Assembly (NCBI RefSeq): GCF_040954645.1
Contig: NC_092808.1
Coordinates: 85,195,389 to 85,259,388 of the forward strand
From: Diabrotica undecimpunctata
Taxonomy: Eukaryota > Arthropoda > Insecta > Coleoptera > Chrysomelidae
Direction of reading: 5' to 3'
DNA length: 64,000 nucleotides
The notes under the pieces were generated by a model. It saw only the letters and a program-made list of their open reading frames with translations, was not told the DNA's origin and did not search any database. Both the position numbers and the translations under genes were made by a program. This document shows, piece after piece, positions 1 to 61,707 of this stretch; within the stretch, counting starts at the first letter, position 1, and each line of letters opens with the position of its first letter.

Positions 1-937
1 GTTGAGATATTAAGAGAGCCGTCTCCTTTCTCTTTTCTGGAGAGAGGAAAAATGAATCTGCTTCTCTTTTGTAGATATATGTATAAAAATATTTTCCTAA
101 AACTATTTATAATAATTTACTTTAATAATTTTGTTTACTATAATTAATTCTACGTACTGTAATTGATTACAGTCGATTACAGACGCAATCCTAGAGGCCG
201 CCACTATTGATTATGCCTTGATCAAAAAGAAGACCAGCCAATTTGAGGTGCTTTTGAAGATCCATGGTAACTAAGGAAGGAATTTCTAAAGCGACCTATT
301 CCAGAGAACCTGCGATAGACTAGGCATAAAAAACAAGAACTACAGGCTATCACCCGCAATCCGATTGAATGGTAGAGCGAATGAATAAGAGAGTTGATAA
401 GTATTTTACAAAAATGGTATCCAATCATCAGCGATACTGGCACCAATAACTTCCGTTCTTCGCAATAGCCAACAGATCTAATGTTAATCAATCAACGAAA
501 GAAACAGCACTGAATGAAAACCATCTCGTGCCGTTTACAACAAGAAGTTGTAAATGAGGGTCCAGTTGCCGATATCAGCATAAGTTTCAGTTCCGAGTAG
601 GTTCCAAGGGGAACCATCTCTGAAGAAGGAGGCAATTTGCTCCTTCCAGGTCTTGGTGGAAAGCCCGTTCATACAGCTCAACAAATATTAAAAAAACAAA
701 GAAGGAGGGAAAAGTAAGTGTACTATTAGCATACCGTAGTAGGTACACCAATTCCGAGTTTAAATGCTAACCCAAATAAATTGTCAACGAGCAGATTATT
801 ACGTACAATACATAAGTTGGACACTAAAAGTTAAATTAATGTTAAGGATAAACTTTTACAATCACAATTAAATTATAAAGCTCAATATAAAAGGCAAAAT
901 AACTGCAAAAGTTGAAAACCCCAGACCTCATCGAATG
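1..937. other. Non-coding flank of the left Ty3/gypsy relic
   Basis: I see no gene here. The stretch lies downstream, in element orientation, of the decayed Pol that ends near 938. It may hold what is left of that element's 3' untranslated region. I could not find a partner for the LTR-like sequence at the other end of the element, so the 3' LTR is probably lost or unrecognisable. The 89-codon open frame at 222-491 has no recognisable motif. Confidence 0.4.
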
Positions 938-1335
938 TTAAATGGAAACAATAATATTGTACCGTTTTTAAATTAAACGAGCAATCTTTCAATCCAGATT
1001 ATCTAGTGCATGGCCTATCTTGTGTAAGGCCAAATTCTTGATGTAATTGCAGATGATTTTCTTCAAATTAGTTAGACACGCCATATATCCTCGTAGGTTG
1101 CCCTGTCTGTATACGACTTCCTGGTCACCATATACAGCAAAGATCGACGACCACCTTCTAATCTAAGTACTTTCCCAACTTTAGGCTGCTGATTTTTTAA
1201 CTCATCCAAACGACCGAACTTCTCATAAAATACGGATGAGATTCGTTTAGTCGTCTCAAGATCTTGGGCAACACAGTGGGTCAGAGAGATGTTATGCGGA
1301 ACACTAAAAAGATCCTGCTGAACTTCTGTCTTCAC
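938..1335 (-). pseudogene. OARD1/TARG1-like macrodomain joined to a Ty3/gypsy Pol (decayed)
   Basis: In frame after the integrase tail, the translation shows the pattern of the OARD1/TARG1 class of macrodomains, which remove ADP-ribose from proteins. Seen in order: a D-L-F-S-x-P start, S-L-T-H-C, F-x-x-K-F-G, E-L-x-N-Q-Q-x-x-x-G, and Y-x-V-T-R-K followed by T-Y-E. The first frame stops at 1072. The domain resumes in another frame from about 1072 (residues resembling L-K-K-I-I-C-N-Y-I-K, then A-L-D-N-L-D), and two further stops interrupt it before its end near 941. The position matching human TARG1 Lys84 is Arg here, the one matching Asp125 is Asp (1001-1003), and the glycine-rich loop is lost. 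This copy is therefore inactive. The family assignment is from memory of the fold's motifs; the link to the integrase frame is read directly. Confidence 0.8.
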
Positions 1336-2589
1336 GCCGAATCTAGCACTCTTTCTTTCTGCGTAATTTGACATAATATCATTAAAGCTTGGTCGCCGGT
1401 CATCTTTGATCTCATTTTGAAGGGTTCGTGCTTCTCCTGTTTCATTTGAGCCAGCATATGGTGCAAGACGATTTATGTGAACTACTTTTGGTCTACTTTT
1501 CGGCAACTTCTTAATTCGGTATATTACGTCATTTATTCTCTTTTTAATTTCATACGGACCTTCTCATTGTCTTTGCAATTTCGGAGAAAAGCCTCGACGA
1601 CGTTGTGGATTATAAAGCCAAATAAGATCACCTAATTCAAAGCTTTCATTCCTGAATCGAGAATCATATTGATCTTTCATTCTGTCATTGGCTAACTGGA
1701 TGTGTTGTCGGGCAAGTTCATGAATATTGTTCATTCTTAACTTCAGGCGGTCGACATACTCTTCGCTAGCAATATGTTCTTAGGAAGGTCTGCAGCCAAA
1801 CTCTAGGTCGCAGGACAAACAAATTTCACGACCTAACATCAGGCAGGTTGAAGTCTGGCCTATAGTTTCATTCACGGCCGAGCGGTAAGCCATTAGGAAT
1901 AAATGAATGTGCTCATCCCAATCTCTTTGATGTTCTGATACAACTTTGGACAGGTGTTTACCCATCGTTCGGTTCATTCTCTCGACCATTCCATCTGATT
2001 GAGGATGCAGGGGTGTCGTTCTGGTACTATTGATACCAATCAATTTACAAACGTTTTGGAAAAGGGTTGACTCGATGTTTCGCCCTTGGTCGGAGTGGAT
2101 CTCCAAGGGAACATCAAATCGGCTAAAGAATTCCTTAACAAGTACCTCTGCAATGCTAGCAGCTTTTTGATTTGGTATCGCATACGCCTCAGTCCATTTC
2201 GTAAAATAATCCATGGCTCCCAGGATATATTTATTCCCATCATTCGTCTCTGGAAGTGGACCTGCAATGTCGATTACTACTCTTTCCATAGGACTACCAA
2301 CATTGTACTGTTTCATGGGTGCCCTCTTTTTACCTACTGGGCCATTACTGGTTGCACACAGTTCACATTTCCGGCACCATCTTCTTACATCATGTTTACA
2401 GTTCACCCAATAGAACCGTTCTCGAACCTTTTGCAGAGTCTTCGTAATACCAAAGTATCCACCTGATGCACTGTCATGGAACTGACGCAATATTTCTGAC
2501 ACTTTACTTTTAGGTACAATCAACTGATGCTTAGATTCTGTACCATCATCGTTCTCAAAGGTTTTATACAGAAGATAATCTTTTAGCAC
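1336..2589 (-). pseudogene. pol: Ty3/gypsy integrase, C-terminal part of Pol (decayed)
   Basis: The 269-codon frame starting at 2589 is a Ty3/gypsy integrase. The zinc-binding region has His38, Cys75 and Cys78, but the second histidine is Tyr45 (G-G-Y-F-G). The catalytic triad is present as Asp107, Asp167 (H-S-D-Q-G) and Glu203 (M-V-E-R), with D-D and D-E spacings of 59 and 35 residues, as usual for the family. The frame breaks near 1780 and continues in another phase as the integrase C-terminal module, ending in a K-V-V-H-I-N-R-L-A-P-Y motif near 1450. A single in-frame stop lies near 1570. The same frame then runs into the macrodomain. Integrase inserts the cDNA into the genome; this copy cannot be functional. 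Confidence 0.88.
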
Positions 2590-2875
2590 TAGGCAATTCC
2601 ATTGGCTGCAGTATCACTTGACTTCCGGACTACATGCACTAATATCTTGCCAAGAAGGTCTTTCACTACGACGCATCCAATCCAATACTCTTTTTATACA
2701 TGGATCATCTGCTTGAGCGTCTTGTAGCTGTTGAGGCTGCCATTGATCATTAATAACGGTGGTTCGTCTCACGAGGCAAAGTCGTTGTTCTAACCTAAGA
2801 CAGTGATTACAATTTGCACTGCATCGCCGTCTTGACTGAGCATCAGCATTTGAATGACTTTTTTCAGCCCAGTGT
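2590..2875 (-). pseudogene. Ty3/gypsy Pol linker between RNase H and integrase, fused to gag by deletion
   Basis: The 162-codon frame at 2614-3102 changes identity in the middle. Its upstream part is Gag with a damaged zinc knuckle. From about residue 75 onward it matches the linker that follows RNase H in Ty3/gypsy Pol: an S-H-S-N-A-D-A-x-S-R-R motif followed by paired cysteines. Protease, reverse transcriptase and nearly all of RNase H are missing, so a large internal deletion joined gag to the end of pol. Frame breaks separate this piece from the integrase below it. Confidence 0.72.
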
Positions 2876-4061
2876 TCAATCTGTTCTAGCTTTCTGACTG
2901 TTGTATTATTTTCTTGCAATTTACGACGAATGTGACCTACGCCGCCACCGTTCCAACATCTGGTTTCGCGTCTCTTCGGCATCGTGTTACGAACTACTCT
3001 CTGTACGGTTTCCTCCAGGTGGTTATCGTTTTGTTCGCCGCTCTCTTTAGAGGTTCGTACTCGATAGGTCCGTGAAGCTCGACTAGCTGTCTCGTGTTCC
3101 AAGACAATGGTGAGCGCTTCATCTAAAACTTTCGGTCGTGCTAGTCATAAAGCTTTCTGTAGTTCACTCTCTCTCAACCCATTGACGAAGGTATCTACAG
3201 CAATTTCTTCCAAAATGTTGTCTGGTACCTCCGGATAAGCCAACCGCGCTATACGAGCAACATCTGCTTCAAATTCTTGCAAATTCTCACTTGCTCGTTG
3301 AATTCTACTTCTTATGTGTACTTTGTAGACTTGTTGTAGATGGACATTTCCGTAACGTTTGTCTAGTCGAGTGAACAAGGTCTAGTAACATTTTTCTTGA
3401 CCCTTAGGAATCGATCTTAGGATATCCGCAGCAGCACCTCGTAAAACAGCAGTCAAGGAAACAGGTGTTTGATCTGTTCTAGCTTTCTGACTGTTGTATT
3501 ATTTTCATGCCATTTACGGCGAATGTGACCTACGTCGCCACCATTGCAACATCTGGTTTCGCATCTCTTCGGCATCGTGTTACGAACTACTATCCGTGTG
3601 ATTTCTTCCAGACGTTTATCGTTTTGTTCGTCGCTCTCTTCAGAGGTTCGTACTCGATAGCTTCGTGAAGCTTGACTAGATCTCTCGTGTTCTAAGGCAA
3701 TAGCAAGCGCTTCATCCAGAACTTTCGGTCTTGCTATGCTGTAATTTAGCTTTCTGTAATTAATAATTTTTTAACCCATTGACGAAGATATCTACAGCAA
3801 TTTCTTACAAAATATTGTCTGGTGCCTCTGGATAAACTAACCGAATTATACGAGCAACATCTGCTTCAAACTCTTGCAAATTTTCACTTGCTCGTTGAAT
3901 TCTACTTCTTAGTTGTGCTATGTAGACTTGTTGTAGATAGGGCATCTCCGTAACGTTTGTCTAGTCGAGTGAATAAGGTCTGGTAACAGTTTTCTTGACC
4001 CTTAGGAATTGATCTTAGGATATCCGCAGCATTACCTCGTAAAGCAGCAGTCAAGGAAACA
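2876..4061. repeat. Tandem duplication (about 590 bp, two copies) inside gag
   Basis: Positions 2876-3461 and 3470-4061 are two diverged direct copies of the same segment. Both begin with ctgttctagctttctgactg and both end with gtcaaggaaacag. Each carries the Gag capsid part and the zinc-knuckle part of the minus-strand element. A few bases separate the copies. They differ by scattered substitutions and small indels, so the duplication is old. It lies next to the internal deletion of the element. Confidence 0.85.
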
Positions 4062-4712
4062 GCTTTTTCTTGTTCTGTCCAATGATTGGGTAATAGCTTC
4101 AAATTGTCTAAGGTATATGGACCAAGAAGACTTTCCATCAAATGGTGGCAATTTGAATCTCATGTGTCGTTTCGTCTCTCGGTGATTCTTCTTTCACGAC
4201 CAGATCTAAGGCTACTGTATTAACTGGTGGTAGCACTTTTGTATTGGTAATCATGCTCTCTAACTGTTTGATGTTCTCTTTTACTTTATCGAATGTTTTA
4301 GAAACTTCTTCAAATTATCTCATTGTTCCGAATACATACTTCGTCGAATCTTCTAGAAACTTTTTCGGGTTTCTCGTCGTTTTGTCTAGCTACTTCTTTA
4401 ATAATTTGAGATTTTTCATCGAATCTTTTGGATACATTCTCGAATTTATCATCATTTTTTCTAGAAGATTCTTCAATCATTTGCGACCTTTTATCGAATC
4501 TTTTGGAAACATTCTCAAATTTTCCATCAATTATTTGAGTTAAAACGGCTTCTTCTGCTGATTGAAACTGGAATGTCCCTGGGTCGTCTCCATTTTTGTT
4601 GAGAACAGTCTTCAGGTCGTTCTTGGAGTATCTTTTTGGACCCACTGCAGTCTTCATTGCGTTCTTCTAGTTGCTCAGGCAACTGTTTTACTGAAAGTTC
4701 TACTAGCAGCAT
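2881..4712 (-). pseudogene. gag: Ty3/gypsy Gag (decayed, part duplicated)
   Basis: Read on the minus strand from 4712. An N-terminal stretch (4310-4657) is a coiled coil built from repeats of K-F-E-N-V-S-K-R-F-D type, about 28 residues each. A capsid-like segment follows (3902-4141, and again 3145-3378 in the duplicated copy) with L-x-x-R-Y-G and a helix-rich retrotransposon-gag pattern. A zinc knuckle near 2940-2985 is reduced to C-W-N-G-G-G-V-G-H without its last cysteine. Several frameshifts and stops break it. Gag would form the particle around the element RNA. The start at 4712 is a guess, because the first codons are in a different frame from the coiled coil. Confidence 0.75.
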
Positions 4713-5008
4713 CTTAGGTGAGGCACATAAGTACTTTTTTAAATGTTCTTCCGTACAAAGATCACTAAGATTACTAAGATCACTAAGTTCGAGTTTATAT
4801 AAATATATTTATTTATAAGTTTACAGCACGAAAATAGCTTATCAACTAACTTAACTCATATAAGGTATGGTTATATATAAAGAAGCCCACCTCTATTTCG
4901 CCTATTTGACGGGTTGATCTCTCTAGCGCTCGATACATTGCAGGAAACTTCTAGTCGCTTTCGAGATGCAACTGTTACACGGGCCACGCCGAATGCATGT
5001 TCGTAACA
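4713..5008 (-). other. Candidate leader and 5' LTR remnant of the left Ty3/gypsy element
   Basis: On the minus strand a stretch starting with tgttacgaacatgc at 5008 lies just upstream of gag. It includes a TATA-like tttatatataacc at about 4870-4885. This is the position and look expected for a 5' LTR, but no second copy exists in the window and no primer-binding site is clear. The boundaries are therefore unproven. Confidence 0.3.
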
Positions 5009-5460
5009 ATATCTAAAGAAAAAGTATTACCTATATATTTAAAATCTTCTATAACTGACAGAAAAGTTTATCAATGATCCTGAGAATACATGTCATTTCA
5101 GTAATTTATGTGCAGAGAAAGAAATAGCATCCAATATAAAATAGTTGACTTCTTTTTAACCCAAATTTACTGCAAATTAAACAAATTAATACATACAAAA
5201 ATACCTATCATGAATCTTTTACCTATTTAAAAATCTTTATTTATTAATTCCACTTTTATTACAATCTATCTACCATACAATCTCAACCTAAATATTTAGG
5301 TAGATAATAGAAAATAAGTAATAGGACTGACAACTAAAATATAATGGCATGCAGGGAAGGATCCAATTGACTATATTTGACACCTATTTATACATTATAC
5401 ATATTTTATACATTTAGCATTAATCAACTAACTCTAATGGAACTTTTCGTTTTAATCTTT
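5009..5460. other. AT-rich DNA with no recognised feature
   Basis: I see no coding or repeat structure that I can name between the left element and the foldback repeat. Confidence 0.4.
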
Positions 5461-5850
5461 GAACTGTAGGTATGCGATTTACTTACTAAACTTTTTGCGA
5501 ACACATTCGGATGCACTTTAAACATCCTACACACGTCCCGACAAGACCACCCAACTGTCGTATTCGACAACGTTGGGCCCGACGGTTGGTGTGTGAGTAG
5601 GCTTGTTGTCCGACAAACATAGTTGTCATATCCCGACTTGACAGGTTTGGTATGGCACAACCGTCGGATACAACTATTTTTGTCGATCAACAAGCCTACA
5701 GACACACCAACCGTCGGACCCAACGTTGTCGGTTACGACCGTTAGGTGATCTTGTCGGGACGTGTGCAGGCTGTTTTAAGTGTTTCTGTATGTTTTTTCG
5801 CACACTTTTTGATTTCATCTTTGACGTATGTTAGAAATTCGCAGTTATGT
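5461..5850. repeat. Foldback inverted repeat, MITE-like
   Basis: Two arms of roughly 190 bp face each other around a centre near 5650. Matching blocks include cacacgtcccgacaaga on the left and its complement near 5755-5770, gacaacgttggg near 5563 with its complement near 5722, and cgacggttggtgtg near 5580 with its complement near 5705. The arms are imperfect. No transposase frame is inside; the two 60-100 codon frames here are mirror images made by the repeat. A non-autonomous DNA transposon is the simplest reading. Confidence 0.75.
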
Positions 5851-48879: not shown

Positions 48880-49085
48880 CATTATAAGAGTGTGTGGATT
48901 ACATCTTGACCTACCTCAATGCAAAGAATAGCACAGCAGGCAAGGTCAAACTCATATTTCGCTAAATTGCACATTCCGATAGAAAAGAAAGTGTTATAAT
49001 ACAGGTATACTTATTTAATACATAACGTACATTTAGTATTGTCTAATATATTTACCGCTGAATGTAAAAATTTTTTAAAATTATC

Positions 49086-52000
49086 ATGGAGAGTCTATAC
49101 GTTAAGCAAGCGGAAATAGGAACAGAAATAGTGAAACTCGTTTCAAATACAAAAAAGGATTCCCAATCTCGGAAAAATCAACAACACATCCGGGATAGAC
49201 AGGAAAAATTAGAAGAATATTGGGCAAAATTTTTAAATAACCACGAAAAGCTGCTAGAAGGGGGTATAACGAAAGAAAAATATTTTGAAACAAAATACTA
49301 TGATCAGGTATTTAAGACATACATTGAGGGGAAAACCCTGTTGGAAGAATATGGAAGGGTGCTGAAAAGAGGAAAAGCACCGAAAGTAAAGGAGATACAG
49401 ATAAGAAAACAAAGAATCGAGGAATTATTACGGCCAGAAAATGAACAAGACTTGCAGGAGGATGAAGAATTGCAGTCAGAGTTAAGAGAATACATGGAAA
49501 AGGTGAATACACTAATGATTGAAGCAGCAGTAAATGAGGAACTGGACGCTACAGATATTGGAGAAGTAGAGAGAATAAATCATCTAAAGAGGAAAGTCAG
49601 GGAAGTTTTAAAGAAAATAAGGCCAGGAATGCAACGGCCAGAAAGCACACAGAGGAGGGACGGTGTGACATTGCCGCAGGTAAAAATCCCTGTGTATGAA
49701 GGCAGATATGAAACGTGGAGAACTTTCCACGATCTGTTTACTAAAGTAATACATGAAAACGACCAGTTATCAAACGCAGAAAAAATGCAGTACCTAAAAA
49801 CTCAAGTAAGAGGGGAAGCCAACAGAATGATACAACACTTAAACATATCCGAGGCCAACTACGAAGTGGCCTGGAACATGCTAAAAGATAGGTATGAGAA
49901 CCCAAGGATGATATTGTTTAAATTAATAGACAGGATGCTACTAGCGCAGGAAGTAAAGGAATCTTCTGCTAGAGCATTGAAATCACTACATGACACCTTC
50001 CACGAAAGTCTGGAAGCCATAGGAGGGTTAGGAACAGACACGGAAGCGTGGAGCCCATTGATAGCCCGAATTATCATAACGAAATGGGACAATGAAACTA
50101 GGAGGCTGTACGAAAACCACATTGGAGACAGTAGAGAGATACCGACGTACAAATCGACACAAACATTCCTACAGCGAAGATTTCAGACACTGGAACTGCT
50201 GGAGTCAGAAAAAAGACAAGAGAAGCAAGGAGGATCTCTTAGGAAACCAAGAACACATTGCGTGATATGCAACGGAGATCACGGAGTACCGAACTGCAGA
50301 GAATTTCAGGAACTCAATGTAAGAGACCGGAACAGGATGATAAAAGAAAAAGGATTGTGTACAAACTGCCTAGCACATAAAAAAGAAAAACAATGTTATT
50401 CACAATATAGGTGCAGACACTGTGGCGGAGACCACCACCATATGTTGCATTATGAAAAAGGAAACACAAGCAACAAAAGAAACTCCAATGAAACGAAACG
50501 AGAACAAACACAAGAAAGAAATGGAAGAGATTCAAACAATAGAAGAAACGAGTACCAAGCTGATAGGTACAGAGGAGGAAATAATAATCCATACAACGCC
50601 AGAGAACAAAATAACGGAAGGCGAGAAAATACACAAGATACCAATGGGCCTAGGAATAGCAACGACCAGCAAAGAGGGCAGAATTCAGTAAACTGTGCAA
50701 GCCATAAGGAAGGTGAAGCATTACTAGCGACAGCTGTGGTACGCATAAAAGATGCGAAAGGAGATTCACACATAATGAGAGCACTAATCGACCAAGGGTC
50801 ACAATGCGCATTTATAACGGAACAAGCTGCGACGACGCTAGGAACAACAAGGAAGCCCATACAGGCGACCATATCCGGGATAGGCTCGTCAGGAGAAAAA
50901 ACAGCCAACTGGAGTATGAAACTTTTAATCGAAACTCATTATGAAAGTGACTTCAAGATGGAAATAGAAGCACTAGTACTACCGAAGATAACAAGGAATT
51001 TACCGGAAAAGGATATAATTCTACCGGACTATAACGAGAAAAATGCAATACTGGCAGATCCAAGATATTACAAGGTAGGGAAGATAGACTTACTACTAGG
51101 AGTAAAAGAATACAGTTACATATTGACAGAAGGGATGCACAGAATAAGTAATGGACTCCTGAGTCAAAACACCAAACTAGGATGGATAGTTTCGGGAATA
51201 GCACGAGAAAGGGAGAATATAAAAGCAGAAGTATGCTGTATGATATCAAGACAAGAAATGGACGTACAAATAAAGAACTTCTGGGAATTAGAAGAAGTAA
51301 ATCAGGATACAAGTTTCTCAGTGGAAGAACAAGAATGTGAAGAACTGTATCGACAGACTGTAAAAAGGAATGAAGAAGGGAGATACGAAGTAAAAATTCC
51401 GTTTAGGGAAGACGTCGCAAAGTTAGGAGAATCTAAACAGCAAGCATTCGCCAGATTGATGCAACTAGAAAGGAAGTTTGCAAAAGACAAACAGTTAGAA
51501 GCGAATTACAGACAATTCATGGAAGATTATGAAAACCAAGGTCATATGGTAATAGCAGAAAACCAGGGAGATGGGTACTACTTACCTCATCATCCAGTGA
51601 GAAAAGAGGACAGTACTACAACGAAAATAAGAGCCGTGTTTGAGGCATCAAGCAAAAGCTCATTGGCAGTAAGCCTGAATGATATTATGCACACAGGGCC
51701 GAAATTACAACAAGACTTGACAAATATACTATTACGATGGAGATCCAATAAGGTAGCATACTCAGCGGATCTGGAAAAAATGTTTAGACAAATCAGAATG
51801 GCAGAAGAAGACCAAAAATATCAAAAAATTTTGTGGAGAAAGGACACAAAGGACCACATACAAGAGTATAACTTAACGACGGTGACATACGGCACGGCCG
51901 CAGCACCCTTTTTAGCGTTAAGAACAATACAACAATTACAAGAAGACGAAGGAGCGAGGTTCCCGTTGGCATCGAAAATTGTAAAAGAAAACATGTATGT

Positions 52001-55000
52001 AGACGATATACTAGGAGGAGCTGAGACAGTGCAGGAAGCAGAAACAGCCCAAAAGGAATTAATACAACTGTTCAGAAAAGGAGGTTTCACTCTTAGAAAA
52101 TGGTTGAGCAACGAAGAAAAAATAATGGAGAACGTACCGGAGGATATGAGGAACGTAGACTCGAAGGCATTCAAACAAGAAGAAGTACGGAAAACGTTAG
52201 GAATACACTGGTCACCTAAAGAGGATATAATCACATTCAAAATAGGGATAACGACGGCAAAGAAAATAACGAAAAGACACGTACTGTCAGAAGTAGCAAA
52301 ACTATACGACCCACTGGGATGGATAGCACCTGTAGTAATTCAGGCGAAAATGTTCATACAGGAATTATGGGAGCAAAAGACCAGTTGGGATAAAGAATTA
52401 ACTAGCAACCAACAAAGCAGGTGGAATACATACCAGGCGCAATTAGTAAATCTGGAGAAAATAACATTGCCCAGGTGGAACAACTTAAGCAAGATAAACA
52501 GAGTAGAACTGCATGGATTTGCAGATGCGTCTATGAAAGGATATGGAGCGGTAATCTACTCAAGGGTATTAGGCCCAGAAATTAAAACGAATCTAATGAT
52601 AGCAAAATCGAAAGTCGCACCATTGAAAGGGAAAACGACGTTACCGAGGCTCGAGCTGTGTGCCGCGGTACTACTAGCAAATTTAATGAAGAAAACCCTA
52701 CAAGCATTGAACAGGGAAAACATTGAGGTATATGCATGGTCGGACTCAACGATAACCCTGGCTTGGATAAGGGGATCATCAAAAAGGTGGAAAATGTTCG
52801 TCGCCAACAGAGTAGAGGAAATAAGACGCGTTATAGGACCGAAAAATTGGCATAAGGTAGATACAAAGGAAAATCCAGCGGACATCCTCTCACGTGGAAG
52901 TACCGCATCAGAATTATTAGAAGCAGAGCTATGGTGGAAGGGACCAACTTGGCTGACTAGTAACAAAACTTTAACTCAGGAATCAGAAGAAATACCAGAG
53001 ACAAATGAGGAGGAAGTCAAAACGAAAATAACGGTGCACACGACAACGATAAAGGAGGACATATGCGAGAGATTCTCAAATTTAGAAAGAATGAGAAGAG
53101 TACTTTCATATTGTAGGAGATTTGCAGACAAATGCAGAAAAAAGAAGGACAATGGACAAAGTCAGCTTACAGTCCAAGAATTAGAGGAAACGCTATTAAA
53201 GGTGATAAAGCACACACAGCACGCCTACTTCAAACAAGAAATAAATAAGCTGGAGAAGAAACAGCAATTAGACAAGAAAAATAAATTAGCGTCATTGGTA
53301 CCATTTCTGGATAGACAAGGAATTCTAAGAGTCACCGGAAGACTGAGACACACGAATCTAAAGTACGGAGAAAAACATCCGATAATTTTGCCAAAGGATA
53401 GTGCATTAACAAAGTTACTTATAACAGATAGTCACGCAAGAAATCTACATAGCGGATTACAACAAACACTACAGTACATAAAAAGGAAATACTGGATAAT
53501 CAACGGCAGAAGAACCGTGAAAGATCATCTAGCAAAATGTTTAAGGTGCAGGAGGTATAAAAGCCAAGCAGCACAACAATTAATGGGAGATCTACCGAAA
53601 GACAGAGTGAACCCGAGTCATCCCTTTACTAACACAGGGATAGATTATGCCGGGCCAATAAAAATAAGTACCACGAGAGGCAGAGGACAGAGGAGCTATA
53701 AGGGCTACATCTCAGTATTTGTGTGTCTGTCAACGAAGGCAGTACACCTTGAGGTAGTAAGCGATATGTCTACGGATGCATTCATCGCAGCGTTCAAGAG
53801 ATTTACGGCACGCAGAGGACAGTGCAACAACGTATACAGCGATAACGGAACCACATTCGTAGGAACAGCAAATTTGTTGAAAAAAGAAAATCAAAAAATA
53901 GATGACGAGATAAAACAAGGATTACTGGCACTAGGTACTCAGTGGCATGTCATACCTGCATATGCACCACATTTCGGAGGATTATGGGAGAGCGCAGTGC
54001 GAATAATGAAATATCACTTGAAAAGAATCATCGGGGAAACAGTTCTAACATATGAAGAATTGAGTACGGTGCTGGCACAAATAGAAGCATGTATGAACTC
54101 GAGACCATTATGTGGGTCATCAGACGACCCTGAAGGGAAAATAGCCCTGACACCAGCTCACTTCCTTATAGGGAGAGAAATTATATCACCAAATCGGGAA
54201 GAAGAGCCTACGACTTATTTGAAGATGCCGACGAGGTGGAGATTAGTGGAGAAAATAAAAAGAGACTTCTGGAAAATTTGGAAACAGGAATACCTGCACC
54301 AATTACAACAGAGAAATAGATGGCATAAGGCGCACCCTAACATAAAAGAAGAAGAAATAGTTATAATTAAAGAAGAAGATACACCTCCAGGCAGATGGCC
54401 ATTAGCGAGGGTAACAGAAACACACCCTGGAGCGGAGGGATTAACCAGAGTAGTAACAGTGAGAAAGGCAAACGGGAAACTGACTAAAAGACCCATACAT
54501 AAGCTAATACGACTGGAAGAAGAGAAACAGGAAAAGCCGAAAAAGGCAGCAGCACTAAGATGGAAGAAAATACTAGTAGCTATAATGTTTTTAACGATGT
54601 TAAAACCCATAAAGGCAGAACCGTATAAAATATATAATCCGGTACCAGGATTTTTCACAGAAGACCTTGGAGAGGTCGTCATAGACCGGGGAACATTTCG
54701 AATAAAGGTGTTACTCGAAAAAGGAAGAATTCGAACAGAGCACCAACTAATAGGAAATATGATACAAGGCGTACGAGAACTGTGTCATGAGATAAAAATC
54801 GTGAATTGTAAGGATATAATAGAGAAATTGGAGGAAGGACAAAGAAAGGCGGAGTCAGTAAGCGAGGGGCTGACAGTAGAAATAAAAGGAAGGGAAAGAA
54901 GAGGAATATTAGGAACAATATTAACCTCAGTATTTGGAGTCAATGACGAAGCCTACAGTAACATTGAAGCATTAGATAATAACCAAAAGGAGCTAATAAA

Positions 55001-56390
55001 GGAATCACAGCACCAGGCGAAGATAATGTTAGAAACAATAACATCAATCAATCACACAGAGAACAGGATAAACGAGCAAATGAACAAGTTTAACAAAGCA
55101 CTAATCACAGGTCTACAAGAAATATCTAAAGGACTTAACGAAGTAGAAGACAAAGCACAAAAACTAGAAACCGAATATAGCACGTTACGAATACAAACGA
55201 TAGCATTACAAGTTATGGACTTCATAAACGAATATACTCAATTTTACGAGGGAATATTAAACCTTCACTATAACCACGGACACTTCATTGATATAGTGAA
55301 ACCGGGTGAAATAACCAAATTAATAGGGAAAGCAGGGCAGATACTGCCTCAAGGGGTCGAAATACGACGACAACCCATTATAGAAACAGAAGTCAGTCAT
55401 GACGACAGATATATAACAGTCATCGGCTACTTCATAGTGACAGGGAAAAATAAGTACAGCATGCTCAAAGTCACGACCATACCACTTAACGTTGAGGGGT
55501 CGGTGTTGCGCACATTTGTCGCCCCAAGGAATCTACTGGTCGTAGATTATAACACACTGCACTACTTCGAATTGACCACGGAAGATAGAGAAAGGTGCTT
55601 ACTGTTGACAAAGGCGCAGATAGCGTGCTCACCAACGGCTATAAGAAACATGGAAACCCAACCAAACTGCATACTAGAAGAAATTTATGAGCGATCTAAG
55701 AATAGCACATGTCCAGTGGTAGCCAGGACAATACAGACAGCTCAATGGAGTAAGATGGGTACTCCCAACCTCTGGCTAGTTATCACGCCAGTCACGATAC
55801 ACATATCCATTATTTGCGATGGAAATCGGAGCGAAAGAGTACTGGAACGAGTCACATTCCTGAAGCTTTCACCCAAATGTATCGCCCAAACGAAAAATAT
55901 TACATTACTCCCCACTAGCAGTGGGGTGGACAGAGCAGTGACGAGTTACCTGAAGTCGCCAATCACTCCCGTGGCCCAACTGGTGGCGAGGACACCCCGC
56001 AAATTTAACACGCCTCTAAACACCTACCTTGACATACCAGGAGGAGAGCTACGTCATGTGTTACTTGAGGAGGAGAGTCTGGAACAAGAAATGACGCATA
56101 CGCAGTGGCGATCGATTCACGAATCTAATTGGCATTATTTTGTGGCCACCGGGATCATTACTATAATGGTAATAATTGGGATACTCACGTTATGGAAGTA
56201 CCGTCCTGTTGCACGACTATGTCGTTCGGGGAATCCACAAACTCAGACTAACGAACAGGAAGTACCTGTATTAGTTAGTAATCGGCACAACAATGTACGG
56301 TCGACTTCCCAAGTTGACATCCCACTTTCCACATTTTCATCCAATTGCCCTAATTTTAATCTAGAGATAGAGTCGGACATTGATAGCTAG
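49086..56390 (+). CDS. BEL/Pao polyprotein: Gag-Pro-RT-RNase H-IN-Env-like, 2434 codons, intact
   Basis: One uninterrupted frame. Residues 1-190: coiled-coil N-terminus. About 196-345: the Pao Gag domain (DUF1759 type), starting L-P-Q-V-K-I-P. Two zinc fingers: C392-C395-H399-C404 and a CX2CX3HX4H at about 454-467. Protease: D569-Q-G-S, the form usual in Pao. RT: Asp895 (S-A-D-L-E-K-M-F) and Y-V-D-D 971-974. RNase H: Asp1147, Glu1190, Asp1220, Asp1266. Integrase: H-H-C-C finger near 1450-1490, then Asp1520, Asp1586, Glu1635 (spacings 65 and 48). The C-terminal integrase module ends near 1811. An envelope-like region follows in the same frame (separate entry). The first ATG is chosen because it opens the coiled coil, 13 nt after a ttaaaaattat leader. 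All catalytic residues I looked for are present. The protein builds particles, copies the RNA and integrates the cDNA. Confidence 0.96.
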   Translation: MESLYVKQAEIGTEIVKLVSNTKKDSQSRKNQQHIRDRQEKLEEYWAKFLNNHEKLLEGGITKEKYFETKYYDQVFKTYIEGKTLLEEYGRVLKRGKAPKVKEIQIRKQRIEELLRPENEQDLQEDEELQSELREYMEKVNTLMIEAAVNEELDATDIGEVERINHLKRKVREVLKKIRPGMQRPESTQRRDGVTLPQVKIPVYEGRYETWRTFHDLFTKVIHENDQLSNAEKMQYLKTQVRGEANRMIQHLNISEANYEVAWNMLKDRYENPRMILFKLIDRMLLAQEVKESSARALKSLHDTFHESLEAIGGLGTDTEAWSPLIARIIITKWDNETRRLYENHIGDSREIPTYKSTQTFLQRRFQTLELLESEKRQEKQGGSLRKPRTHCVICNGDHGVPNCREFQELNVRDRNRMIKEKGLCTNCLAHKKEKQCYSQYRCRHCGGDHHHMLHYEKGNTSNKRNSNETKREQTQERNGRDSNNRRNEYQADRYRGGNNNPYNAREQNNGRRENTQDTNGPRNSNDQQRGQNSVNCASHKEGEALLATAVVRIKDAKGDSHIMRALIDQGSQCAFITEQAATTLGTTRKPIQATISGIGSSGEKTANWSMKLLIETHYESDFKMEIEALVLPKITRNLPEKDIILPDYNEKNAILADPRYYKVGKIDLLLGVKEYSYILTEGMHRISNGLLSQNTKLGWIVSGIARERENIKAEVCCMISRQEMDVQIKNFWELEEVNQDTSFSVEEQECEELYRQTVKRNEEGRYEVKIPFREDVAKLGESKQQAFARLMQLERKFAKDKQLEANYRQFMEDYENQGHMVIAENQGDGYYLPHHPVRKEDSTTTKIRAVFEASSKSSLAVSLNDIMHTGPKLQQDLTNILLRWRSNKVAYSADLEKMFRQIRMAEEDQKYQKILWRKDTKDHIQEYNLTTVTYGTAAAPFLALRTIQQLQEDEGARFPLASKIVKENMYVDDILGGAETVQEAETAQKELIQLFRKGGFTLRKWLSNEEKIMENVPEDMRNVDSKAFKQEEVRKTLGIHWSPKEDIITFKIGITTAKKITKRHVLSEVAKLYDPLGWIAPVVIQAKMFIQELWEQKTSWDKELTSNQQSRWNTYQAQLVNLEKITLPRWNNLSKINRVELHGFADASMKGYGAVIYSRVLGPEIKTNLMIAKSKVAPLKGKTTLPRLELCAAVLLANLMKKTLQALNRENIEVYAWSDSTITLAWIRGSSKRWKMFVANRVEEIRRVIGPKNWHKVDTKENPADILSRGSTASELLEAELWWKGPTWLTSNKTLTQESEEIPETNEEEVKTKITVHTTTIKEDICERFSNLERMRRVLSYCRRFADKCRKKKDNGQSQLTVQELEETLLKVIKHTQHAYFKQEINKLEKKQQLDKKNKLASLVPFLDRQGILRVTGRLRHTNLKYGEKHPIILPKDSALTKLLITDSHARNLHSGLQQTLQYIKRKYWIINGRRTVKDHLAKCLRCRRYKSQAAQQLMGDLPKDRVNPSHPFTNTGIDYAGPIKISTTRGRGQRSYKGYISVFVCLSTKAVHLEVVSDMSTDAFIAAFKRFTARRGQCNNVYSDNGTTFVGTANLLKKENQKIDDEIKQGLLALGTQWHVIPAYAPHFGGLWESAVRIMKYHLKRIIGETVLTYEELSTVLAQIEACMNSRPLCGSSDDPEGKIALTPAHFLIGREIISPNREEEPTTYLKMPTRWRLVEKIKRDFWKIWKQEYLHQLQQRNRWHKAHPNIKEEEIVIIKEEDTPPGRWPLARVTETHPGAEGLTRVVTVRKANGKLTKRPIHKLIRLEEEKQEKPKKAAALRWKKILVAIMFLTMLKPIKAEPYKIYNPVPGFFTEDLGEVVIDRGTFRIKVLLEKGRIRTEHQLIGNMIQGVRELCHEIKIVNCKDIIEKLEEGQRKAESVSEGLTVEIKGRERRGILGTILTSVFGVNDEAYSNIEALDNNQKELIKESQHQAKIMLETITSINHTENRINEQMNKFNKALITGLQEISKGLNEVEDKAQKLETEYSTLRIQTIALQVMDFINEYTQFYEGILNLHYNHGHFIDIVKPGEITKLIGKAGQILPQGVEIRRQPIIETEVSHDDRYITVIGYFIVTGKNKYSMLKVTTIPLNVEGSVLRTFVAPRNLLVVDYNTLHYFELTTEDRERCLLLTKAQIACSPTAIRNMETQPNCILEEIYERSKNSTCPVVARTIQTAQWSKMGTPNLWLVITPVTIHISIICDGNRSERVLERVTFLKLSPKCIAQTKNITLLPTSSGVDRAVTSYLKSPITPVAQLVARTPRKFNTPLNTYLDIPGGELRHVLLEEESLEQEMTHTQWRSIHESNWHYFVATGIITIMVIIGILTLWKYRPVARLCRSGNPQTQTNEQEVPVLVSNRHNNVRSTSQVDIPLSTFSSNCPNFNLEIESDIDS
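54559..56390 (+). CDS. Env-like (class I, baculovirus-F/errantivirus type) C-terminal part of the BEL polyprotein
   Basis: About residues 1825-2434 of the polyprotein. In order: a hydrophobic stretch at 1827-1840 that could act as an internal signal sequence; a basic furin-like site ending R-E-R-R at 1939; a hydrophobic fusion-peptide-like segment starting G-I-L-G (1940-1951); a long coiled coil (about 1958-2065); a cysteine-rich ectodomain; four N-x-S/T sites (N-H-T, N-S-T, N-R-S, N-I-T); one transmembrane helix at about 2352-2372; and a 60-residue cytoplasmic tail. This is the architecture of the F-type fusion proteins that insect errantiviruses and roo share with baculoviruses. All landmarks are unbroken. 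Whether env is made by proteolysis or from a spliced RNA cannot be told here. Confidence 0.87.
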
Positions 56391-58572: not shown

Positions 58573-59406
58573 TTAACAAATCAAGTCTATTGAATAAAAT
58601 GGATATATCAGTAAGCTGTTAGTGTTAAGTTTATAACCTAAATATATCACTACTTTTTGAAAAAATGTACATTTTTCTTGATTTATTTTAAGTCCAACTT
58701 TATCTAATCTGTTTATTATAATTTTTAGGTGTTTCTCATGATCTTCAGCCGTTTTAGAAAAAATTAATATACCATCAATGTAGTGAATTACAAAATGTTC
58801 ATATTGATCCAAAATATCATGAAGACATCTACATAGAGCACTGCAAGATGATTCAAGTCCAAATGGTAGTACTTTGAATTGATATACTACTCCATCTATC
58901 TGAAATCCTGTATACTGTCTACTTTTTCTTTCTAGAGGTATTAACCAAAAACTATGCTGTAAATCGATTTTAGTGAAAAATGACATTCCTGTAATTCTTC
59001 CTAGTATTCCATCTTCTAACATATTATTAATCGTTCTGTTTACTTCTTCTCTGTATTTATATGGTATTGTGTATGATTTTGTTTTAAAATCTTTTTCTTC
59101 TTTAACTTTTATACTATGGATATAATTTTGTGCAATTCTATTTTCTTTATTGACAAGTCCCTTGTGTTGCTGCAATATGGAAATGACTATTGATTTATAT
59201 TCTTCAGGGCAATTTAAAACTTTCATCATATTTTCTTTTTTACAAATAAAATTATTCTTCATTATGTACTCATTATTCCTTGCTTCCAATTTTACGCACT
59301 CCGCCTCGTAGGCATCCATCTGCTTAAAATTTCCATTCCTTAAATATTCACTACAATAATTATTCTTTATATTCTTTTGGGACATTTCCCTATCATCAAA
59401 ATACAT
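58573..59406 (-). pseudogene. Outer element, reverse transcriptase remnant
   Basis: 277 codons, in the same frame as the protease but separated by one stop codon at 59437-59439. The connection domain runs to E-D-G-I-L-G-R-I (137). It then jumps straight to F-F-T-K-I-D-L (Asp148, motif A), so roughly 45 usual residues, including the segment with the conserved K-K-D-G, are missing. F-G-L near 182 and Y-I-D-G at 209-212 follow; the second catalytic Asp of Y-x-D-D is Gly. The frame ends soon after motif E; there is no thumb, RNase H or integrase. The RT cannot work. Confidence 0.85.
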
Positions 59407-59436
59407 TTCTTCTTCATAAACATCATTATTTTCTTT

Positions 59437-59955
59437 TTATAATATCCTATCAACTCTTATTCCTTCTTCCACCTCATCTTTCTGCATAAATTTAATTATT
59501 TGCCCTTCCAAAGTTACCATTTTTTCTTCAAAATCTATCTTTACTTTCTTTTTTTCCAATTCATCATTTCCCATTAATATATCAACACATAAATCCTTGA
59601 CAATAAATCCTTGCATATTAATTTCTTTATTAAGAATATTAATTTTAAAATTGGCTAGTTTATCAATTTCACCCAACTTCTTATTATTTGCACCAATAAT
59701 TTTAATTTTTGGAATCTTTATTATATCTGATAGTTTTAATGTATTAAAAATAAAATTCTCCGAGACTAAAGTACTTTCTGAACCAGTATCTATCATAATT
59801 TTAATCATTTTATTTTTGGCCAAAGCATTTATATAAATTAAATTAATAGATTCAATAATTTTCTCTTCATCTAAAGAAATAAATTCAGAAGGTTTTTCAT
59901 AATAGCAATGGCCTAACTTGTAATTCAGAAAGTTTACTGCACAAAATTTTGATTA
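59437..59955 (-). CDS. Outer element, retropepsin-like protease frame
   Basis: The frame is open from about 59955, overlapping the end of gag by some 20 bases in the -1 phase, and stops at 59437. Counting from the Met at 59823, the active-site motif I-D-T-G-S is at 11-15 (Asp12) and the second hydrophobic-G motif (I-L-M-G-N-D) lies near 83-88. Both are as in Ty3/gypsy aspartic proteases, which cut the Gag and Pol precursors. No damage is visible in the protease itself. Confidence 0.82.
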
Positions 59956-61583
59956 TTAGAATTGTCAGATTGTATCTGACCACTTGGATCTGATGTCCTA
60001 TGTCTTTCCCTACTATGACTTCTACTCACATTTTCCTGCCTTGTACTACTTTGTTCCCTGTCTTCGCAGCTTCTATTCCTTCGAACACAATTTACCTGTC
60101 TGTTATAGTTAGGTCGCTCTGTATTTTTTCTATTGTTAAAATCTTGTCTATTATTATTAGTACTGTTATTAAAATGTTGTCTATTATAATTAGTATTATT
60201 ATTAAAATTTTGTCTATTATAACTAGTATTATTATTAAAGTTCTGTCTATTTGGATTACTGTTATTATTATTAAAATTTTGTAAACTATCACCATACCTA
60301 GTATTATTGTTATATGATTGTCTATATTGTTGATTATCATTTTTATTATATTGAAAGTTATTATTGTTTTTTCTGTTGTTATTATTACTTGTCATATTGC
60401 CTCTTTGTATTCTTTGAATAAAATTAATAAAACTATCTATTGTTTGAATATTTTGTACAGTTACGGTTTGCACAACATCAGCATCAAAATGTCTAGATAC
60501 ATTTAAGACTGTTTCATCCTCTCTAAGTGGTGGTTCTAAATATTTTGCAACTGTTATCAATTTCAATGCATAATCTACCATATTTGATTTTAAATTTTGA
60601 ATATACTTTCCAAAATATAGAATTTCTCTAAACTTGGCTTGCTCTAATTCACCCCAATAATAATTTAAAAATTTATTTTCAAATGTTTGAAAATTATCTA
60701 AATCATTCTCAATACTAGCAAACCAAGTTGCTGCATTGTCATTTAATGTCATTCTAATATAATCTTTAATATCATTAATATTATTCACAAATCTTAATTT
60801 ATGTTTTAAACTATTTATGTATACTCTAGGATGCAAATTTTTTATATTACCAGAGAATTTAATTCCAGTCTCATTTGTTAAATTTAAGTAAGGTCTCCCT
60901 ATGTCTCTCATTTGTGAAATATCATCTATTCTCTGTTCCACATTTCTTATTTGATTACAATTTATTTGGATATTTTGTTGTATATCGTCTAATTTTTCTT
61001 CTGTGTTTCTCCTGTCTTCGTTAATTTTTACTTCTAAGTTACATTTTTGCAACTCTATTTTCTGTTCTATATCTATCTTATTATCTTGAATAATCCTCTT
61101 TACTTCTGTCCTCTCATTGTCTATCCTTTTCTTGTAGTCATTCCGTATACTTTTTATTTCATTTGCTACTTTTTTCTCTGCAGCTTCAAGTTTTTTATCC
61201 ATTTGTTTTACAATTTTATTATTATTATCTTCTATTTTCTTTTCTAATTTTCTATAATTCTCTTCCAATTTCTGTTCCATTTTTTTCATGTCTTCTTTGA
61301 CTTCTTTTGAATTCTCTTCCAATTTTTTTATGTCTTCTTTGATTTCTTGTGAATTCTGTTCCATTTTGTGTTCTATTTTTTTCGTATTCTCTTCCATTGT
61401 CTTGTTCATCTGCATCATTAATGACATCAAAGCTGCCATATTGACATTTTCCTCTCTTTCTGTATTCATTTCTGCAGTATCTTGTGGAGCTTGTACTAAA
61501 CTCTCCTCTTGTATAGGTTGTGTTTCTACTTCCACATCTTCTTCATTCTTTTTGGTTCTTGTACCTTTCTTTCCTTGAGACAT
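59934..61583 (-). CDS. gag: Outer element, Gag (549 codons, intact)
   Basis: Residues 45-235 form a long coiled coil rich in K-K-M-E-Q-K and E-N-x-K-E repeats. About 245-395 is a capsid-type domain with a retrotransposon-gag look (W-F-A-S-I-E-N-D, F-L-N-Y-Y-W-G-E-L-E-Q-A-K-F-R). Residues 398-545 are extremely Asn-rich, with a short Y-N-R-Q-N/H-F-N-N repeat. No CX2CX4HX4C zinc knuckle exists; the Arg/Asn-rich tail may replace it in RNA binding. The start codon is the first in frame after the primer site, 125 nt inside the LTR. It is intact although the RT beside it is broken. Confidence 0.87.
   Translation of the reverse strand: MSQGKKGTRTKKNEEDVEVETQPIQEESLVQAPQDTAEMNTEREENVNMAALMSLMMQMNKTMEENTKKIEHKMEQNSQEIKEDIKKLEENSKEVKEDMKKMEQKLEENYRKLEKKIEDNNNKIVKQMDKKLEAAEKKVANEIKSIRNDYKKRIDNERTEVKRIIQDNKIDIEQKIELQKCNLEVKINEDRRNTEEKLDDIQQNIQINCNQIRNVEQRIDDISQMRDIGRPYLNLTNETGIKFSGNIKNLHPRVYINSLKHKLRFVNNINDIKDYIRMTLNDNAATWFASIENDLDNFQTFENKFLNYYWGELEQAKFREILYFGKYIQNLKSNMVDYALKLITVAKYLEPPLREDETVLNVSRHFDADVVQTVTVQNIQTIDSFINFIQRIQRGNMTSNNNNRKNNNNFQYNKNDNQQYRQSYNNNTRYGDSLQNFNNNNSNPNRQNFNNNTSYNRQNFNNNTNYNRQHFNNSTNNNRQDFNNRKNTERPNYNRQVNCVRRNRSCEDREQSSTRQENVSRSHSRERHRTSDPSGQIQSDNSNNQNFVQ
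59943..59949 (-). promoter_or_regulatory. Candidate -1 ribosomal frameshift site (AAATTTT)
   Basis: Four codons before the gag stop the minus strand reads A-AAT-TTT in gag phase, the X-XXY-YYZ pattern. The -1 frame is open from here into the protease. No downstream pseudoknot was worked out. Confidence 0.55.
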
Positions 61584-61707
61584 TTTGAGACTTTACTTGT
61601 TCAAATATAATTAAAATTAAAATCTATAATTTTTTCTTTCTAATGAAAATTAATTTAATTATATGAGAGCACTTATCTTTCCAAACTAATTCTTTTAAAT
61701 AGAGAGC

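Follow-up and report, generated by a model that had tools for sequence, protein, structure and literature searches.

In a 64,000-nucleotide window of the Diabrotica undecimpunctata genome (contig NC_092808.1), the minus strand carries, at about 982-5042, a decayed Ty3/gypsy element that belongs to a young, multi-copy family of long terminal repeat (LTR) retrotransposons whose Pol continues past the integrase into a macrodomain. We are practically certain of the order of this Pol in the family: protease, reverse transcriptase (RT), RNase H and integrase, then a linker of ~40 residues, a macrodomain of the TARG1 type and finally a CCCH zinc finger, Pol stopping shortly ahead of the 3' LTR. An earlier note, made from the letters of 938-2589 alone, had described a Ty3/gypsy Pol with an OARD1/TARG1-like macrodomain after the integrase; it had the domain set in this part of Pol right except for the CCCH finger, which it missed and which is lost from the window copy.

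A search of the host genome (1.743-Gb assembly) returned 150 scored matches out of 6179 first-look candidates. The 149 matches besides the window copy were 88-90% identical and stop-free within the match, and they lay in open frames of 236-1866 aa. Apart from the window copy, we examined 66 copies (L013-L031, L037-L043 and L044-L083), and 57 of them have the integrase end within the same open frame as the CCCH motif, 52 of these also fitting the strict pattern of the catalytic loop. As the macrodomain lies between these two in a single frame, it is open in the same 57 copies, and the intact copies with integrase and macrodomain in one frame that the earlier note had proposed to look for do exist, running through to the zinc finger.

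All 12 long loci (L032-L043; total length 5.4-6.3 kb) present LTR matches of 269-283 bp, nine pairs being identical and three differing by one mismatch, and all 12 have TG..CA ends and 4-bp target duplications (BLAST limits trimmed to TG..CA). In every one of them, 14 bases separate the end of the last Pol codon from the TG of the 3' LTR. Gag (403-428 aa) and Pol (1413-1414 aa) occupy different, overlapping frames in L035, L037, L040 and L041; a single frame of 1806-1857 aa spans both in L032-L034, L036 and L038, and shorter joint frames occur in L039 and L043 (1547 and 1705 aa, respectively), L042 being broken upstream (921 aa). The youth of these loci is partly a matter of selection, since they were drawn from the best-scoring matches, mostly long frames. 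Five pieces of L037 scanned with Pfam gave SAP, Retrotrans_gag and zf-CCHC in Gag, and aspartyl protease, RT, RNase H, Integrase_H2C2, rve, p58_C and zf-CCCH in Pol, with no match at E 0.01 to a chromodomain in the C-terminal piece or to NADAR in any piece. Among solved structures, the RT piece matched 4ol8 (E 6.2e-88) and then Ty3 Gag-Pol (7q5b, E 1.1e-87), and the finger matched those of CPSF4 (best E 8e-7). Gene order, LTR ends and target duplications are all those of a Ty3/gypsy LTR retrotransposon (Metaviridae). The SAP domain stands at the N-terminus of Gag (L037:2870-4150, E 3.6e-6, above the Pfam cutoff) and is, to our knowledge, unusual in a gypsy Gag.

Five distinct chain sequences of human C6orf130/TARG1 align to residues 79-161 of a 163-codon frame in the window (1075-1563, minus strand) at E 3.8e-13 to 4.8e-13, and the macrodomain piece of the open copy L037 gives E 6.6e-28 to TARG1. 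An AlphaFold model of the related retroelement protein P0008, built on 39 sequences, reached a mean predicted local distance difference test (pLDDT) score of 73, with about 90+ over most of the macrodomain and <50 in much of the tail (an earlier model from 6 sequences, pLDDT 36, was not used). When this model was submitted to Foldseek, TARG1 (4j5s) came first (E 1.3e-15, target template-modelling score 0.93, root-mean-square deviation (rmsd) 1.2, 42% identity). The Pfam Macro search that the earlier note had suggested came out negative: PF01661 has no match in the window frame at E 0.1 nor in the L037 piece at E 0.01, and every scanned relative stays under its cutoff of 22 bits (P0011, the highest, 20.7; P0009 and P0012, 19.3; P0001, 19.1; P0008, 17.4; P0003, 12.8; none listed for P0005, P0007, P0010 and P0013), the OARD1 of a newt (P0014) clearing it with 37.3 bits. 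Because Pfam Macro remains below its cutoff in the retroelement proteins, the identity of the domain rests on the TARG1 sequence matches and on the fold, and both are those of the TARG1 branch. A chance resemblance or a one-off insertion is ruled out by the TARG1 E-values plus the further copies and relatives; a macrodomain match exists and the copies do not all end at the integrase, the two points on which the earlier note had staked its reading. In a search of viral structures, VP8 of Kadipiro virus was the best match (E 5e-17, 37% identity, rmsd 12.9 over 200 columns), followed by several proteins of insect virga-/negev-like viruses.

The window copy itself is dead, and its macrodomain is incomplete. 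Over 982-2882 it shares 93.4% identity with the open-frame copy L035 (1905 bp, BLAST). The 163-codon frame leads from the integrase C-terminal module through the linker into the TARG1/OARD1-type macrodomain, as the earlier note had seen, and 992-1075 (minus strand) carries the domain on after a frameshift, up to the catalytic-loop motif IGHALD and then a stop. The note's three frames are thus two, and the domain is not complete in length as it had held: BLAST similarity to the open copies ceases at 982, leaving about 116 of 135 macrodomain codons (counted from the L035 frame), and by comparison with those copies 938-981 lies outside the element. The 3' end is missing, with no 3' LTR seen, and a search of 1-2700 with the tail of P0013 found no CCCH zinc finger (best E 0.38). 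About 2.1 kb, corresponding to protease, RT and RNase H, is lacking as well. LTR searches inside the window alone gave no convincing repeat pair, and the 5' LTR remains were recognised through comparison with other copies. The parts of the copy are as follows, in the direction of its strand.

4787-5042, minus strand: remains of the 5' LTR, in which stretches 4787-4879 and 4886-5042 match the LTRs of L035 and L037 at 71-75%.
3471-4765, minus strand: gag in broken frames, 85-87% to the gag part of L035 and L037.
2876-3470, minus strand: tandem duplicate of the 3' part of gag, an 88% repeat of about 597 bp, both copies matching the same part of L035.
2876-2882, minus strand: junction lacking protease, RT and RNase H, where L035 3973-6070 has no counterpart in window positions 1-5600.
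1780-2613, minus strand: zinc-binding domain and catalytic core of the integrase (Integrase_H2C2, E 2.1e-20; rve, E 3.2e-13).
1459-1560, minus strand: integrase C-terminal module (PF22938 Integrase_p58_C, E 1.1e-12), which we take to be of the GPY/F type.
1330-1458, minus strand: linker of about 40 residues, which alignment also brings out in other species.
1075-1329, minus strand: first part of the macrodomain, in frame with the integrase end (TARG1, E about 4e-13).
992-1075, minus strand: second part of the macrodomain, past the frameshift, with the loop Asp at 1001-1003 and then a stop codon.

Selection was measured on 64 copies (L051 and L066 were dropped for poor coverage), using the 1138 pairs (of 2016) that differed by 2% or more and bootstrapping over codons. 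The ratio of nonsynonymous to synonymous rates (dN/dS) of the macrodomain was 0.20 (0.11-0.41), or 0.19 over all 2016 pairs, with 0.15 (0.07-0.44) inside the search query and 0.26 (0.11-0.63) outside it. The C-terminal module plus linker gave 0.23 (0.09-0.64), the 204 integrase codons upstream of that module (from the later half of the catalytic core onward) 0.19 (0.09-0.35), and the 300 codons preceding those 0.35 (0.22-0.55); the upstream integrase codons, like the outer part of the macrodomain, lay outside the search query. Macrodomain variants common to at least two copies comprised 15 replacements and 18 silent changes, against about 2.4:1 expected (p 0.003). Purifying selection on the macrodomain, for which the earlier note had wished to test, is indicated by these comparisons, at a strength similar to that on neighbouring Pol (0.19-0.35).

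Relatives occur in other species. A protein search with the 163-aa query retrieved 6 proteins at E <= 0.001 among 69 candidates, and an alignment-based search 49 at E <= 0.01 among 5183 candidates. Thirteen are of retroelement type by their make-up (P0001-P0005, P0007-P0013 and P0015; P0006 is integrase only), and their sources include D. undecimpunctata (P0001 for one), D. balteata, D. virgifera, Callosobruchus analis (P0005) and, for the 11-member cluster P0011, the firefly Pyrocoelia pectoralis. Integrase end (PF22938), linker and macrodomain stand in one protein in P0009 and P0010; in P0003, P0008, P0010, P0012 and P0013 the macrodomain leads on to a CCCH motif. P0003 and P0010 clear the cutoff of the zf-CCCH model (PF00642), P0012 falls just short of it and P0013 well short, and the finger of P0008 matches other CCCH models only, below cutoff. 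P0009 and P0011 diverge past the first Cys of the motif; P0007 breaks off at that Cys, and the remaining proteins do so before it. No relative was found in the viral contigs scanned, and a scan of genome contigs gave 11 loci, every one in records of bacterial metagenome-assembled genomes.

In trees of 47 macrodomains, those of the retroelements formed one clade (support 98/97, and 99/96 once L022 was included). In the first tree, without L022, this clade adjoined the OARD1 of newt and lancelet, with P0017 and P0021, and the bacterial-type relatives stood apart (100/99). Eight metagenome rows (near-duplicate or shorter), one OARD1 row and the fragments P0002 and P0004 were omitted from the trees, L009 also from the second, and P0005, P0006, P0013 and P0015 never entered. 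The simplest reading would be a single capture from a eukaryotic-type OARD1, on a tree sample that holds no named arthropod OARD1. A capture from bacteria, suggested by a shared EVQQDLF start and ILVC end, is not supported, as the domain groups with eukaryotic OARD1 and the bacterial relatives stand away from it in both trees; the latter were probably pulled in by the shared EVQQDLF word. The Diabrotica proteins annotated as OARD1-like (P0001, P0007 and P0013) show the linker of the retroelements or the CCCH tail, and are probably retrotransposon fragments and not host repair genes. Three further TARG1-like proteins, P0026, P0042 and P0047, have an N-terminal NTPase-like part, assigned to Pfam PF13521 in P0026 and P0047.

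According to passages of the papers cited, human TARG1 acts through Lys84 and Asp125 (PMC9411070), its K84A mutant does not rescue cells from DarT (PMC8501950), and the enzyme strips ADP-ribose from Glu/Asp, thymidine and RNA ends (PMC9411070, PMC8501950, PMC6582358). Lys84 is kept in 6/6 non-Diabrotica retroelement proteins with an aligned residue, and the loop Asp in 5/6: both are present in P0003, P0008, P0009, P0011 and P0012, P0010 has the Lys only, and P0005 has a gap at position 84. The OARD1 of newt and lancelet have the same Lys/Asp dyad as these five. In the window copy the codon for the Asp125 equivalent is kept (1001-1003), as the earlier note had pointed out; it had not remarked that the Lys84 equivalent is Arg (1120-1122).

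The explanation that we prefer, identity and mechanism taken together, seems to us evenly poised between right and wrong, and the mechanism as a whole, which is drawn from sequence, falls a shade short of that. The macrodomain would be made together with the integrase and would travel with the element particle and the integration complex, where it would bind ADP-ribose on the nucleic acids or proteins of the element, or on chromatin, with the CCCH finger contributing a contact to nucleic acid. In lineages with both Lys and Asp, it would most likely remove ADP-ribose set by host transferases on the element or the insertion site, and the substrates of hydrolysis in the Lys lineages could be protein, DNA or RNA ends, all of which are substrates of TARG1. 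In Diabrotica, with Lys replaced by Arg and Asp mostly kept, it would most likely still bind ADP-ribose, as a reader or as a hydrolase with altered chemistry. ADP-ribose binding, plus hydrolysis where the Lys is kept, would be the likely function, and the purpose it serves may be to counter host transferases, to help repair where the element integrates, or targeting. It is a doubtful further step that the lineage captured a eukaryotic ADP-ribose eraser which Diabrotica made into a catalytically altered reader joined to integrase and CCCH finger, linking host PARP signalling to integration or to the function of the particle.

Several observations weigh against the preferred explanation. Arg stands at the Lys84 position in 64/64 Diabrotica copies, and the Asp125 position is Asp in 60/63, Glu in two and Asn in one; annotated proteins of Diabrotica long enough to cover the two positions likewise have Arg, and then Glu (P0001, P0004, P0007 and P0013) or Val (P0002). 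The Lys84 and Asp125 dyad of TARG1 is accordingly incomplete in the Diabrotica copies, and their catalytic loop reads GHA in place of GCG. Because of the change from Lys84 to Arg and from GCG to GHA, hydrolysis is not to be assumed in Diabrotica, and of the earlier note's proposal the repeated occurrence of a TARG1-like macrodomain in a Ty3/gypsy Pol holds, but a working enzyme of the element's own for removing ADP-ribose is unsupported there. Loss of the dyad is no proof of lost activity, since SCO6735, with Gln and Ala at the dyad sites, still cleaves thymidine-linked ADP-ribose according to a passage of PMC9411070. Beyond Diabrotica, the residues of the catalytic loop are missing from P0010, the sequence of P0003 is scrambled near the first motif, and P0005 of C. 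analis retains only pieces of the macrodomain. Proteins of ~544-1731 aa yielded no full-length Pol with the macrodomain at E 0.001 (94 candidates). As to selection, ranking the copies by protein score favours those that are conserved, and pairs are not independent. Singleton variants were also short of replacements (28 to 22 silent, p 0.03, with one stop), so that the contrast between shared and singleton variants is not clean. The finger region showed no clear constraint (dN/dS 0.83, 0.27-2.24), in figures that a 3-base insertion affects. Finally, only 18 of 58 gap-free rows were stop-free from the macrodomain to the stop in the alignment to L022, which we attribute to the loss of the 3-base insertion in aligning to that copy, direct frames being open in 57/66.

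Among other explanations, the macrodomain may be a reader that steers integration through ADP-ribosylated chromatin in the manner of a chromodomain, hydrolysis being unneeded and lost in Diabrotica; we regard this as possible and unlikely. It would fit the placement of the domain straight after the integrase C-terminal module, where PMC3605345 puts the chromodomain that is the hallmark of chromoviruses, and the replacement of Lys84 by Arg although the domain is under purifying selection. Insertion also looks non-random, because all 12 target duplications are of the form xTAx (GTAT, ATAT, ATAG, ATAC, CTAC) and 3/12 lie within AT repeats, but the integrase core alone can yield such a target, and a pure reader would have no need of the catalytic Lys that all six non-Diabrotica proteins keep.

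Somewhat less probable again is a narrow counter-defence, in which the domain would undo antiviral or anti-element ADP-ribosylation, as has been proposed for viral macrodomains. The range of TARG1 substrates, the viral structure matches that include Kadipiro virus VP8 and the insect virga-/negev-like proteins, and the dyad common to newt and lancelet OARD1 and five retroelement proteins would agree with such a role, yet the Diabrotica copies lack the Lys and have nevertheless multiplied recently. A captured domain carried as a passenger without function, for which the damaged loop of P0010, the damaged first motif of P0003 and the weakly constrained zinc-finger region would speak, is already disfavoured and very improbable, as the macrodomain dN/dS lies within the range of neighbouring Pol and the domain has been kept across a single clade to which both a firefly and a genus of leaf beetles belong, a seed beetle having a further remnant.

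With human TARG1/OARD1 (C6orf130, of the ALC1-like macrodomain class) the element shares sequence, fold and the catalytic-loop Asp. Unlike TARG1, its macrodomain lies within Pol, between integrase and CCCH finger, and has, in Diabrotica, Arg at position 84 and a GHA loop. The nearest published case that we found is a Gypsy lineage of Ectocarpus with a NADAR domain of the YbiA family, described in part of PMC12477816, which is likewise an ADP-ribose-related accessory domain in a Ty3/gypsy Pol. Chromoviruses have an extra domain of reader type in the same place at the integrase end (PMC3605345); unlike them, the element has a macrodomain and a CCCH finger, and L037 has no chromodomain match at E 0.01. 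The viral macrodomains of Kadipiro virus VP8 and of insect virga-like viruses also belong to selfish elements and have a similar fold, but these are RNA viruses and the protein context is another. In the open-access literature searched (listed titles, starts of abstracts and some passages, with Repbase outside its scope), we found no description of a macrodomain in an LTR retrotransposon, and the text of PMC6338049, on accessory domains in retrotransposons, does not contain 'ADP-ribos'. Passages of PMC8982398 count gypsy elements among the chief contributors to the genome-size difference between Diabrotica groups and do not mention a macrodomain.

The window contains further retroelement sequences. 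Pieces of another integrase lie at 194-509 (plus strand), 50.8% and 42.6% identical to that at 1783-2613. Inspection by eye suggests a BEL/Pao-like element in a 2440-codon open frame at 49068-56387, whose stretch 53373-54125 matches integrase weakly, and a further set of retroelement-like frames at 58576-61592 (minus strand).

The macrodomains of some RNA viruses reverse ADP-ribosylation, and a retrotransposon that keeps a constrained one would bring ADP-ribose into the biology of retrotransposition. Lineages with Lys and lineages with Arg would then constitute a natural experiment on eraser versus reader function.
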